NCBI RefSeq assembly: GCF_013387475.1
Contig: NZ_VWNB01000010.1
Coordinates: forward strand, 62,001-126,000
Reading direction: 5' to 3'
Source: Mariprofundus sp. KV
GTDB lineage: Bacteria; Pseudomonadota; Zetaproteobacteria; Mariprofundales; Mariprofundaceae
Length of the DNA: 64,000 bases
This document shows positions 2,607 through 46,385 of the stretch, piece after piece (the stretch's first letter is position 1; every line of letters begins with the position of its first letter). Position numbers and translations under genes: made by a program. Under the pieces are notes generated by a model that was not told the DNA's origin, ran no database searches, and saw only the letters and a list, made by a program, of their open reading frames with translations.

Positions 2607-3104
2607 TCAGTCGACAGTAAAACCTTTCGAGCCACGACGCATGCCCAACGGCCCGGTACGGGTAGTCTCAATAATACCGAACACCTCCAGCTCATCGAGA
2701 ATTTTGTCCAGCAGATCAACGGTATTGGTAAATTCAAGAATCATGTGGCTGTCGATATGATCATCAACCACCTTGGCATCATACTTTTCAGCAAATTCCA
2801 GTACGGCATCGCAATTTTCAGGCCTGACCTTCACCTTCACCATCAGCATGCCACGCTCCAGATGCACAGCATGAGAGATATCCTCAACCTTGATCACCGG
2901 CACCAGCTTGTTCAGCTGTTTCTTGATCTGTTCAATGACACGCTCGTCACCCATGGTTACCAGCGTCATACGACTGACCGTTCTGTCCTTCAGCGGCGCC
3001 ACATTCAGCGTTTCGATATTGTAGCCACGCGCAGAGAAGAGTCCTGCCACTCGGGTCAGAACACCGAACTCGTTTTCAACCAGAATCGTAATTGTATGTC
3101 TCAT
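2607..3104 (-). CDS. ilvN: Acetolactate synthase small (regulatory) subunit
   Basis: The regulatory subunit of acetohydroxyacid synthase, which confers valine feedback inhibition on the catalytic subunit in branched-chain amino acid synthesis. Residues 1-75 form an ACT domain beginning with [21 protein letters not shown], and the C-terminal half matches the IlvH-type regulatory domain. The length of 165 residues is typical of the IlvH/IlvN long form. Its ATG overlaps the stop of the large-subunit gene (ATGA), showing translational coupling and equal expression of the two subunits. Confidence 0.96.
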
Positions 3105-4801
3105 GATAATACCATCTCGTTCAGAGCAGCCCCGGCCGGAACCATCGGGAACACATTCTCCTCTTTGGATACCGCAACATCGAGCAGTACAAAGCGATCG
3201 TTTACATTCAAGGCCTTATCCAGTGCAGCATCAAGCTCTTCAACCCTGTCAACGCGGATGCCCACGCCACCATAAGCCTCCGCCAGCTTGACGAAGTTGG
3301 GCAGTGAATCGAAGTAGGATTGTGAATAGCGGGACTCGTAGAACATCTCCTGCCACTGACGTACCATGCCCATATAGCCGTTATTAAGAATAATCACGAC
3401 AACCGGCAGGTTATACTGGAAAGCCATGGAGAACTCCTGGCTACACATCTGAATCGATGAGTCACCGGTAAAGACAATAACCTTCTCATCCGGCATGGCC
3501 ACCTGCGCACCAATAGCGGCAGGCAGACCATAACCCATCGTGCCGAGACCACCGGAGGTGAGCCAGCGGTGCGGACGGTTAAAGCCATAGTGCTGGGCAG
3601 CCCACATCTGATGCTGGCCTACGTCGGTTGCCACAATGGCACTGCCATGGGTCTTCTCATGTACCCGGCGAATCACAGTCTGTGGTTTAATCGCCCCCTT
3701 ATCAGGCTGATCAAAACCGAGCGAATCCTTAGCCCGCCACTCATCAATCTGCTGCCACCAGAGATCCAGCGCTTCGGCATCAGGCTTACCATCCCTGCGG
3801 GCGATCTCCTCCAGCAATTGCTTAAGAACCACACCGACATCACCCACAATCGGCAGATGGGCATGGATGTTCTTCGAGATTGAGGATGGATCGACATCAA
3901 TATGAATCACCTTGGCATCCGGCGCAAAGGCATCCAGGCGTCCGGTTACGCGATCATCAAAGCGGGCACCAATGGCAACCAGCAGATCACAGTGTGAAAC
4001 CGCCATGTTCGCTTCATAGGTGCCGTGCATGCCCAGCATGCCGACAAAATGTTTGTCATCGTGAGGTATGCCACCAAGCCCCATCAGAGTGTTGGTCACC
4101 GGTGCATTCAGGGCATGCGAAAGCTCACGCAGCAGTGATGCACTGCCGACCGAACTCATGATGCCGCCGCCGCTATAGAGCACAGGGCGTTTGGCTGCCA
4201 GCATCGATCTGACCGCTTTTTTGATCTGACCCGGATGGCCGGTGGTGACCGGCTGGTAGGAGCGCATATTGACCTCTTCAGGCCAAACAAATTCGCAAAC
4301 ATCAATACTGATATCTTTAGGAATGTCGACCAGTACAGGGCCGGGACGACCGGTTGTGGCAATGTGGAAGGCCTGGCGAATGATCAGCGCCAGATCCTCA
4401 ACACGTTTAACCAGGAAATTATGCTTGGTAGCCGAACGGGTGATACCGACAACATCGGCCTCCTGAAAGGCATCGTTACCGATCAGTGCAGAGGGCACCT
4501 GTCCGGAGAAGCAGACCGTAGGAATGGAGTCGGCCAGCGAGTCGGCAAGACCGGTCACCGCATTGGTTGCGCCCGGGCCACTGGTCACCAGTGCCACACC
4601 ACATTTGCCCGACACACGCGCATATCCATTGGCCGCATGCAGGGCACCCTGCTCGTGGCGCACAAGATAGTGTTTGAAATGGCTCTGCTGAAAGATCGCA
4701 TCATAAATCTGCAGCACCGAACCGCCGGGATATCCGAAGATGGTATCCACACCCTCACGTTTGAGGCATTCAACAAAGATTTCAGCACCGCTCAGTTTCA
4801 T
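3101..4801 (-). CDS. ilvB: Acetolactate synthase large (catalytic) subunit
   Basis: A thiamine-diphosphate and FAD-dependent enzyme that condenses two pyruvates, or pyruvate with 2-oxobutyrate, in the first common step of valine, leucine and isoleucine synthesis. The catalytic glutamate lies in [15 protein letters not shown] near the N-terminus. The cofactor-binding region carries GDSSIQM followed by NNGYMGMV; the usual GDG is GDS here, a tolerated variant. The length of 566 residues is normal. About 150 bp of upstream DNA separates it from rimI; it may hold the promoter, but I see no clear attenuator there. Confidence 0.96.
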
Positions 4802-42914: not shown

Positions 42915-42975
42915 GGAATGATCGCGACTCATCTATAGAGTGGATGAAGCTGGGCAAGCATGTACTATTCTGCCA

Positions 42976-44307
42976 ATGACAACCACCTTTGATGAATCTT
43001 ACTGGCACCGTATCAAGGATGCACTGATGGATGAGATCCCTGCATCCCGTTTTGATGCGTGGATTCGGCCGTTAACCGCCCACTACAATGATGGGGATTT
43101 AACCATCAAGGTTGCCAACCGATTTTTTCTTGATGGCCTGAAAGCCAGCTACGGCAAACGGCTTAGCGAACTGGCTCATATTATGATCGGCGATCACATC
43201 AACATCCTCTATGAGGTCGATGCCAAACTGGCAGCAGCGGCAGAGGTGCAGAAAGAAGAGGCGGAAGTTGAAAGCAGGCAGTCCAACGTTGATGGTTATA
43301 TCGATCCGCGTTTCACCTTTGAGAATTTTGTTGTCGGTTCCGGCAATGAGTTCTGCCATGCCGCCTGCCGTGCCGTGGCTGATAAACCCGGTGCCATCTA
43401 TAACCCGCTCTACCTCTATGGTGGTGTAGGCCTTGGTAAAACACATCTGATCAATGCCGTGGCCAATGAGCTGTTGAGTAAGGATCACACCCGCATCGCC
43501 TACCGCACAGGTGAGCGTTTCACCAATGAGCTGATCCAGGCCATTCGTAATGGTTCAACTGATGCTTTTAGAAATCAGTACCGTCAGGTGGATGTACTGA
43601 TCATTGATGATATCCAGTTTATTGCCGGCAAGGATCGTACGCAGGAGGAGTTTTTCCACACCTTCAATGCGCTGTATGAGGTAAAAAAGCAGATTATTCT
43701 TACCTCTGACCGTAGCCCGCGCGATCTGACTAACCTGATGGAGCGTCTGCGCTCCCGTTTCAACTGGGGTCTGGTTGCCGATATTCAACCGCCCGATCTT
43801 GAGACACGTTTGGCAATTTTATCCAGTAAAGCGGAGTTGGCAGGTGTTCATCTTGATAAAGATGTTGGCCATCTGCTGGCATCACGTATTAAAAATAACG
43901 TGCGTGAACTTGAAGGTGCACTGACCCGTCTTACTGCCCATGCAACTTTGACCGGTCGCACCATTGATATCGCATTTGCCCGTCATGTACTGCGTGATCT
44001 GCTGCATGAAGAGGTTCGCGCAATCTCTGTAGAGGATATTCAGAAGAAGGTCGCCTCCTACTTTAATATTAATATACGTGAGATGTCCTCAAGTAAACGC
44101 AGTCGCACCATTGCATTCCCGCGCCAGATTGCGATGTATGCCACAAAAGAGCTGACCACCCTTTCGTTGCCAGAGATCGGTGGTCATTTTGGTGGTAAAG
44201 ATCATACAACCGTTCTCTATGCGGTACGAAAGATTGATGCAAAACGCAAAGAGTCGGAAGATTTTGATGAAGAGATGGGGCGGATTATGGCCCTGCTCAA
44301 ACAGTAA
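42976..44307 (+). CDS. dnaA: Chromosomal replication initiator DnaA
   Basis: The AAA+ ATPase that binds DnaA boxes and opens the origin. From ATG 42976 it has 443 residues beginning MTTTFDESYWHRIKDAL; an in-frame GTG at 42940 adds 12 residues without homology. Domain III shows Walker A GGVGLGKTHLIN and Walker B VLIIDDIQFIAGK. Domain IV carries the DNA-binding signature KDHTTVLYAVRKI. It is followed by an origin-like intergenic region and dnaN. Confidence 0.97.
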   Translation: MTTTFDESYWHRIKDALMDEIPASRFDAWIRPLTAHYNDGDLTIKVANRFFLDGLKASYGKRLSELAHIMIGDHINILYEVDAKLAAAAEVQKEEAEVESRQSNVDGYIDPRFTFENFVVGSGNEFCHAACRAVADKPGAIYNPLYLYGGVGLGKTHLINAVANELLSKDHTRIAYRTGERFTNELIQAIRNGSTDAFRNQYRQVDVLIIDDIQFIAGKDRTQEEFFHTFNALYEVKKQIILTSDRSPRDLTNLMERLRSRFNWGLVADIQPPDLETRLAILSSKAELAGVHLDKDVGHLLASRIKNNVRELEGALTRLTAHATLTGRTIDIAFARHVLRDLLHEEVRAISVEDIQKKVASYFNINIREMSSSKRSRTIAFPRQIAMYATKELTTLSLPEIGGHFGGKDHTTVLYAVRKIDAKRKESEDFDEEMGRIMALLKQ

Positions 44308-44519
44308 ATAGCTCTCCAGGCCTCTTATCAAAAAGCCTTTTCTGTCACACTGGAGCAATCAAAAACCGGTTAATGTTTGATATGGGATCTATTTCTCATT
44401 ATCACCCATGCCTATCTTGTTAAGACTTGTAACTAACCGTTATTAAATGACTTTAGAAATATTTATTCACACAACAGGTAAATCATTCCCCCCTCCAGAA
44501 AGGTGTTAGCCTATCCCCA

Positions 44520-44725
44520 TATAGCCTGTGGATAGATTGAGCATAAGCCGATACCTGACCACCACCCTGATACCAATCGGAGTTTATCCACATCCTGTTC
44601 ACAAGCTCTCCATTATTCACACACAGTTCAAAGAGCAGTTAAAGCCAATAGCTGAATAGGTATTCTATGCTTACTCACACTACTCACAGCACCTATGATG
44701 ACTATGAATCTTTATTAAAATAAAA
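44520..44725 (+). repeat. Origin module copy 1
   Basis: The first of two diverged direct repeats. It contains in order TGTGGATAG, TTATCCACATCCTGTTCAC, a TTCACACACAG element and a 27-base identical block starting TACTCACAGCACC (44681-44707). Every landmark recurs at exactly +542 bp in copy 2, so there are no net indels between the copies. Confidence 0.85.
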
Positions 44726-45061
44726 GGGTAACAAGTAATAAAGGCAACAACCTTACAGGAATATTCCAGCATACTTTTATTCAGTAGAAACAAAAGTATG
44801 TAAAGAATCCCAGATCAATGAGAAACCATGCATATCCATCTGAATGGGGTAAAAAAATAATGGCAATCAAATTGAAAGTATTGAGCTACTCTTTAAGCCA
44901 TCTACTCGCTCTTAATACGCTTTAACCGGATGAGCCAAACACCTGGTTCTCTCCGGAAACATTCATTTAAAGTGTACCCTGCTAAAATGATGATGCGGTC
45001 TCTTCGTAGTAGAGAGGAACAACACTTCTCTTTTGAGTGATAAGGTGTGAGTCTCTCCGCG

Positions 45062-45267
45062 CATATATTGTGGATAGTTTGAGTATAAAGTGATTGACCG
45101 AACTGATGCGACTGAGCATGATTAATTATCCACATCCTGTTCACTCTCTCTCCTGGATTCACACACAGACCGGAGATGCTAAAAAGCCATGTGAACAATG
45201 GATAAGTGGGGTTTATTCACAATACTCACAGCACCTATGATGACTATGAGTTTTTATAAATATAAAG
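45062..45267 (+). repeat. Origin module copy 2, upstream of dnaN
   Basis: The second copy has the same landmarks: TGTGGATAG at 45069, TTATCCACATCCTGTTCAC at 45126 and the 27-base identical block at 45223-45249. It ends just before the dnaN ribosome-binding region (AAAGGGGATTAGG), so it may also carry the dnaN promoter. Confidence 0.85.
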
Positions 45268-45284
45268 GGGATTAGGTAGTAGAT

Positions 45285-46385
45285 ATGAACATCACATTGT
45301 CCAGAGCATCTTTGTTGCAGGCAGTGCAGCGTTGTCAGAGCATTGTAGAAAAACGCCACACCATCCCGATTCTTGCCAATATTTTACTGCAGGCAGAAAA
45401 CGATACGTTGCATATTACCGCTACCGATCTTGAAGTTGGTATCCGTTCTCAGGCACCGGCCACCGTTAGCAAAGAGGGTTCGATCACTGTATCAGCGAGA
45501 AAACTGTTTGATATCATCAAAGAGCTTGATGCTGATCAGGATGTAACCCTTGAGAGTGGTGAGACCTTTGTATCGATTCGCAGTGGTCGTTCCCGTTTTC
45601 GTTTGGCCTCGCTTGCCGCTGGTGAATATCCGGCATTAAAAGAGGAGCAGGGTGGCAGCGCCATCACCCTCTCCGGTTCAACACTTTCCGATATGGTTGC
45701 AGCTACTGCCTTTGCCATGTCCACAGATGAGACCCGTAAATATCTAACCGGTAGCCTGTTTGAGGTAGATAGTGAGCATATGCTCAGACTGGTCACCACC
45801 GATGGTCACAGACTGGCGCTCTCTGAGGTTCGTCTTCAGCAACAGACCGAGGCTGTAAAATGCATAGTACCGCGCAAAGCGGTGATGGAGATCAAAAAGC
45901 TCTGTGATGAGTGTCAGGGACAGATCGAACTGTTTCTGGGTGAGCGTCAGATTCGTCTGGTGGCTGACTCCAACATTCTCACCTCAAAACTGATCGATGC
46001 CCGTTTCCCGGTCTATCAGGATGTGATTCCTGTGAATAACCCTGCACAGGCGATTGTCGCCAAGGGTGAATTTGATCAGGTGCTGCGCCGCAGCATGATT
46101 GTAGCCAATGAGTTTACCCACGATGTTCGACTCACCTTCAAAGAGAAGGGCATTGATATCTCTGCACACAATACCGAGCAGGAAGAGGCGGAAGAGCATA
46201 TCTCGACTGATTACAACGGTCAGGAGGTCGCTATCGGTTTTAATGGTCGCTACCTCAGGGATACGTTGGGTGCCATTCGCTCTTCAGCAGTACGCATTGA
46301 GCTTAAAGATGAGCTCTCTCCGGTACTGGTGCGTGGTGATGACGATGAGGGATCGCGCTATGTTATTATGCCGATGAGGATCTGA
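45285..46385 (+). CDS. dnaN: DNA polymerase III sliding clamp (beta)
   Basis: The ring-shaped processivity clamp. The 366-residue product has three repeated clamp domains and the C-terminal PMRI ending typical of DnaN. Segments such as ETRKYLTGSLFEVD and TTDGHRLALSEV match the second domain. It is followed by recF after 7 bp. Confidence 0.97.
   Translation: MNITLSRASLLQAVQRCQSIVEKRHTIPILANILLQAENDTLHITATDLEVGIRSQAPATVSKEGSITVSARKLFDIIKELDADQDVTLESGETFVSIRSGRSRFRLASLAAGEYPALKEEQGGSAITLSGSTLSDMVAATAFAMSTDETRKYLTGSLFEVDSEHMLRLVTTDGHRLALSEVRLQQQTEAVKCIVPRKAVMEIKKLCDECQGQIELFLGERQIRLVADSNILTSKLIDARFPVYQDVIPVNNPAQAIVAKGEFDQVLRRSMIVANEFTHDVRLTFKEKGIDISAHNTEQEEAEEHISTDYNGQEVAIGFNGRYLRDTLGAIRSSAVRIELKDELSPVLVRGDDDEGSRYVIMPMRI

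Follow-up and report, generated by a model that had tools for sequence, protein, structure and literature searches.

Results

A duplicated putative origin module between dnaA and dnaN

The interval between dnaA and dnaN in Mariprofundus sp. KV, from a genus of iron oxidisers, carries the same block of about 230 bp twice, and we read the pair as a duplicated chromosome origin (probability about 0.6), in which both copies would be maintained oriC modules and only the dnaN-proximal one would also drive dnaN. The two copies lie in the interval 44308-45284 of the window (the whole 64,000-nucleotide stretch analysed), at 44500-44728 and 45042-45270, and align without gaps at an offset of +542. The best ungapped 229-column self-match of the intergenic region scored 151, compared to a mean of 86 and a maximum of 95 in 300 dinucleotide shuffles, which places the duplication far above chance expectation and bears out the first-pass annotation, which had noted landmarks recurring at +542. 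The pairs at exactly this offset are TGTGGATAG (44527/45069), TTATCCACATCCTGTTCAC (44584/45126), TTCACACAC (near 44615/45157) and the 27-bp block TACTCACAGCACCTATGATGACTATGA (44681/45223). Identity between the copies is 36/47 in the first conserved block, 19/19 at TTATCCACATCCTGTTCAC, 29/45 in the next and 51/58 in the last, falling to 8/37 and 8/23 where the two intervening stretches have diverged, and the alignment is absent before 44500 (24/101) and past 44728 (1/14).

GC skew switches sign at the dnaA-dnaN interval, which together with the flanking genes makes this the expected site of oriC, and both modules there contain a predicted DnaA-box cluster adjoining an AT-rich tract. An Rfam scan of the window returned tRNAs only, and the ORF list holds no long plausible + strand reading frame in the inter-module spacer. 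The features of the locus are as follows.

42940-44307, + strand: dnaA (Pfam Bac_DnaA, Bac_DnaA_C and DnaA_N)
44500-44728, + strand: module 1, putative upstream oriC module, ungapped +542 match to module 2 (nhmmer 99.0 bits; model R1 102.5 bits)
44527-44535, - strand: module 1 box b, TGTGGATAG (CTATCCACA on the - strand, 1 mismatch)
44538-44546, - strand: module 1 box b2, TGAGCATAA (TTATGCTCA, 2 mismatches), 11 bp from box b
44547-44583, no strand: decayed module 1 counterpart of the module 2 promoter-like segment (identity 8/37; PWM -17.2 versus +14.6)
44584-44592, + strand: module 1 box c, TTATCCACA, perfect
44595-44603, + strand: module 1 box d, CTGTTCACA, 11 bp past c
44613-44621, + strand: module 1 box e, TTATTCACA
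44671-44688, + strand: module 1 tandem boxes f and g, TTACTCACA and CTACTCACA
44692-44707, + strand: module 1 trio-like element, CCTATGATGACTATGA, identical in module 2, with a CCTATGA core kept genus-wide
44708-44728, + strand: module 1 AT-rich tract, candidate unwinding element (0.77 A+T over 30 bp)
44731-45041, no strand: inter-module spacer, fast evolving (5 indel events versus G001, 4 versus G012)
45042-45270, + strand: module 2, putative dnaN-proximal oriC module (nhmmer 120.3 bits; model R1 116.9 bits)
45069-45077, - strand: module 2 box b, TGTGGATAG
45080-45088, - strand: module 2 box b2, TGAGTATAA (TTATACTCA)
45094-45122, + strand: promoter-like TTGACC-N17-CATGAT, putative dnaN promoter, module 2 only (PWM difference between the copies)
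45126-45134, + strand: module 2 box c, TTATCCACA, perfect
45137-45145, + strand: module 2 box d, CTGTTCACT
45155-45163, + strand: module 2 box e, GGATTCACA, weak
45213-45230, + strand: module 2 tandem boxes f and g, TTATTCACA and ATACTCACA
45234-45249, + strand: module 2 trio-like element, CCTATGATGACTATGA
45250-45270, + strand: module 2 AT-rich tract, extending into the dnaN leader (0.73 A+T over 30 bp)
45285-46385, + strand: dnaN (Pfam DNA_pol3_beta domains)

Both blocks thus contain the whole putative oriC of the genus: CCTATGATGACTATGA, an AT-rich tract and DnaA boxes, of which two point leftward and several rightward. From left to right, a module has b and b2 pointing leftward, then c, d and e pointing rightward; after a linker come tandem f and g, followed by CCTATGATGACTATGA and the AT-rich tract. 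A promoter-like sequence between b2 and c is found in module 2 only. Module 2 occupies the same position as the module of single-copy relatives. An assembly artefact was rejected because the duplication recurs in two relatives, G001 and the single-contig G012, and two named isolates, M. ferrooxydans PV-1 and M. erugo P3, also have extra copies.

Geometry inside and between modules

Across 43 module copies, box b is followed by box c at 57 bp in 39, box c by d at 11 bp in 42, box f by g at 9 bp in all 43, and box g by the trio-like element at 12 bp in 41, with linker identity averaging just 31-37%. Module 1 carries no indels relative to G001 and G012 (21 and 72 substitutions in 231 bp, respectively), and module 2 is the slower-evolving copy, with 4 substitutions in 243 bp between the genome of the window (G000) and G001. 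The module-to-module offset varies, from 542 bp in the window to about 620 in G001, 488 in G012, 486 in G013 and 430 in G006, and an offset of about 1065 also occurs. These alignments indicate that geometry inside the module is held fixed and that the inter-module distance is free. The earlier proposal of a duplication followed by selection on spacing therefore holds inside the module, where box distances are fixed and module 1 lacks indels, whereas selection on the exact 542-bp offset was rejected given the offsets of these close relatives.

Constraint on the upstream copies and loss of the promoter-like segment

Counting DnaA-box and trio-like columns as elements, we compared changes in elements and linkers between upstream copies, and found 3/88 versus 15/93 for G000/G001 (p=0.0036), 5/88 versus 18/91 for G006/G011 (p=0.0041), 11/88 versus 49/93 for G012/G000 (p=5e-9) and 5/88 versus 54/93 for the two upstream copies of G005 (up1/up2, p=4e-15). 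Elements of the upstream copies change several-fold less than linkers, a pattern indicating that they are constrained. If module 1 were a non-functional leftover of tandem duplication in neutral decay, its missing promoter-like segment and diverged linkers would be expected, but we regard this as highly improbable given the several-fold difference in all four comparisons, the lack of indels in module 1 while the neighbouring DNA is scrambled, and its retention in G000, G001 and G012.

We then scored each segment by PWM against the single-copy genomes. With p-values pooled over 12 upstream copies treated as independent, which overstates their independence because they trace to 3-4 events, the box and trio-like segments scored alike in upstream and dnaN-proximal copies (p at least 0.22; trio-like median 20.1 versus 20.1 bits), the promoter-like segment from TTGAGTATAA to TTATCCACA had a median of -10.0 upstream versus +14.6 in dnaN-proximal copies (p=7.5e-5), and the AT-rich segment scored slightly lower upstream (p=0.0095) at similar A+T content. 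In 12/12 upstream copies the promoter-like segment scored below that of the genome's own dnaN-proximal copy. These scores indicate that the DnaA-box and CCTATGATGA segments persist in upstream copies, which have lost the promoter-like stretch that dnaN-proximal copies keep.

TTGACC-N17-CATGAT is the only sigma-70-like match of the interval on either strand, a count not above chance (1 found versus 3.7 expected from shuffles), and its position and conservation point to a putative dnaN promoter. Several dnaN-proximal copies share AACG(A/C)TAAGCTAG(G/C), beyond the -35/-10 hexamers, between TTGAGTATAA and TTATCCACA, and this may be a further protein-binding site, not a promoter alone.

The first-pass annotation had allowed that one copy might be the origin and the other a control region for dnaN. 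The survival of the promoter-like segment in dnaN-proximal copies only agrees with a dnaN role for module 2, but for module 2 to be solely a DnaA-regulated dnaN promoter and module 1 the origin is improbable, since module 2 retains the AT-rich tract and trio-like element along with every box, evolves more slowly, and has as its counterpart the sole candidate origin of 12 single-copy genomes.

Module number among relatives

Relatives among Mariprofundus and other Zetaproteobacteria were collected through dnaN, and the module sequence model R1 was searched against 74 genomes of the family. Among the 22 genomes of the genus Mariprofundus with a detected module, counting full-length copies, 12 have one module, 8 have two and 2 have three. 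Reverse-strand model hits, which arise from the opposed DnaA boxes within each module, were left out of these counts, as were G084 (two contigs, each with its own dnaN), G070 (apparently two different dnaN contigs) and a second hit in G068 (a weak match on the dnaA contig, upstream of dnaA). The three-module genomes are M. erugo, with all copies in dnaA-dnaN, and G005, where one lies in dnaA-dnaN and the other two are upstream of dnaA; in both M. ferrooxydans PV-1 and G010, one copy precedes dnaA and one is downstream of it. In single-copy relatives the module is the sole dnaA-dnaN element, and the loci examined place it close to dnaA or dnaN. Such relatives had been put forward as speaking against a duplicated origin; they are present, and they date the duplication and do not refute it.

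In G005 (locus L124, G005:C91:19000-26000) the modules lie at 1301-1522, 2987-3199 and 4009-4210 (- strand), the two upstream of dnaA being about 1 kb apart, which shows that the module can be inserted both upstream and downstream of dnaA. The three modules of M. erugo P3 (L015, 2171-4000) lie within a dnaA-dnaN interval of 1830 bp and adjoin a remnant of a DDE transposase gene (126-aa fragment, 2121-2501, - strand), whose insertion may have helped the duplications or come after them. Between dnaA and the single module of G092 (L009, 3183-3518) is a 111-aa ORF without a Pfam match, whose frame seems broken by a stop, in the manner of a decaying insertion. In another genus of the family, G063 (L158, G063:C33:7500-10977) has two modules beside dnaN, 350 bp apart (1878-2069 and 2224-2419, - strand), likely a further duplication.

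Comparison with known origins and a proposed mechanism

The bipartite oriC of Bacillus subtilis, Helicobacter pylori and other Epsilonproteobacteria likewise has two DnaA-box clusters near dnaA, and in PV-1, G010 and G005 the modules lie, as there, on both sides of dnaA. Known bipartite origins comprise two box clusters with a gene, usually dnaA, between them and an unwinding element in one sub-region (PMC4285127; PMC5043019). The clusters of the window are instead co-linear paralogous copies of one complete module, both within dnaA-dnaN rather than on either side of dnaA, and by sequence the trio-like element and AT-rich tract are present in both. A bipartite origin, raised in the first-pass annotation, is therefore a poor fit in its textbook sense, as both copies retain every element.

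Module 1 might still serve as an accessory DnaA-binding cluster, a titration or looping partner, with unwinding and initiation left to module 2. This arrangement would match the two clusters and single unwinding element of the known bipartite origins (PMC4285127; PMC5043019), the upstream placement of the extra copies in PV-1, G010 and G005, which corresponds to that of oriC1 in bipartite origins, and the slightly lower upstream score of the AT-rich segment. We consider it rather unlikely, because a pure titration site would not need the trio-like element, boxes f and g and the AT-rich tract, all of which are retained upstream (equal trio-like medians; A+T of 0.77 versus 0.73 in the window). 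Retention of the trio-like element and AT-rich tract in the upstream copy favours firing of both modules over titration or looping, although DnaA sites could be conserved for regulation or titration without initiation.

The right-hand part of the module resembles the basal unwinding system (BUS), in that co-oriented tandem boxes f and g and a short GC-containing spacer precede a CTA (3'-GAT-5') triplet, after which triplet-spaced sequence runs into AT-rich DNA. The published search pattern for BUS is a DnaA box, a spacer of up to 16 bp and three or more N-A-N trios (PMC8287927). In both window copies tandem f and g directly precede the trio-like element, placing a box within 16 bp; three or more consecutive N-A-N trios are absent from both, where CTA TGA TGA CTA TGA deviates from the pattern. 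Several relatives match it, for example the G006 upstream copy with CTA CTA CTA ATT. We call the element trio-like because only some triplets fit.

Our preferred reading of a duplicated origin supposes an ancestral genus module of about 230 bp with DnaA boxes, an AT-rich unwinding tract joined to a trio-like element, and a dnaN promoter embedded in it. This module would have been copied to a second dnaA-dnaN site in the ancestor of the window's species, G001 and G012, after which identical box geometry and the same elements would have been maintained in both, with the dnaN-proximal copy keeping both roles and the upstream copy the origin elements only. DnaA, whose binding and unwinding activity we predict here, as we do promoter activity, would load on boxes b to e of either module, extend to tandem f and g, and open the CCTATGATGA/AT-rich tract beside them. 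The outcome would be two equivalent initiation or unwinding sites separated by about 540 bp, of which one would escape the transcription of dnaN. A stronger form, which we hold only tentatively, is that each module is a functional origin alone, and that some Mariprofundus species may have two or three complete origins competing within about 0.4-3 kb, a state gained repeatedly, with the extra ones released from dnaN transcription.

The prevailing view gives each bacterial chromosome a single origin, and the splitting of some origins still calls for an explanation (PMC4285127, PMC4403523). The large origin-containing duplication of Mycobacterium bovis BCG Pasteur and the double oriCs that DoriC lists for Acidaminococcus likewise give more than one origin region per chromosome; reported bacterial double origins are large duplications or separate loci, and in these two cases whole gene blocks were copied or a second dnaA is included (PMC4403523). 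In Mariprofundus, by contrast, a module of about 230 bp appears to have been copied alone, several times independently, and kept through species divergence. In the open-licence literature we found no paper on Mariprofundus oriC or on repeated or recurrently duplicated short oriC modules. Origins of this genus seem to evolve by whole-module copying rather than splitting, which suggests that one possible route to bipartite origins is whole-module duplication with some parts lost afterwards. Species with one, two and three modules form a natural series in which a complete module was recurrently copied and kept; comparing them offers a way to tell DnaA-box geometry apart from transcription within oriC, and to ask how cells tolerate or use a second origin adjacent to the first.

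History of the duplications

On a tree of the DnaA and DnaN proteins, the distribution of single and multiple modules requires at least four changes, and module trees sort the copies by clade rather than by position. A constraint that kept all upstream copies in one group was rejected in an AU test (p about 1e-82), which excludes a single ancient duplication inherited by all. Joining the upstream copies of G000/G001/G012 with those of G013/G006/G011 was also rejected (p about 1e-5), whereas a grouping of M. erugo upstream copies with those of the PV-1 clade was not (p=0.20). These rejections indicate that at least three lineages of the genus gained extra copies separately, unless gene conversion homogenised older copies. 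The module trees unite the upstream copies of G000, G001 and G012 with modest support (86-93%), and G008 carries a single module; the duplication in the window is thus probably older than the split from G012 and later than that from G008.

Gene conversion between copies could mimic independent duplication. The linkers of the window's two copies have diverged by 62% (58/93), which argues against recent conversion there. In G013 (L115), the first ~33 bp of the two modules are nearly identical and the remainder has diverged, which looks like local gene conversion of the 5' module ends.
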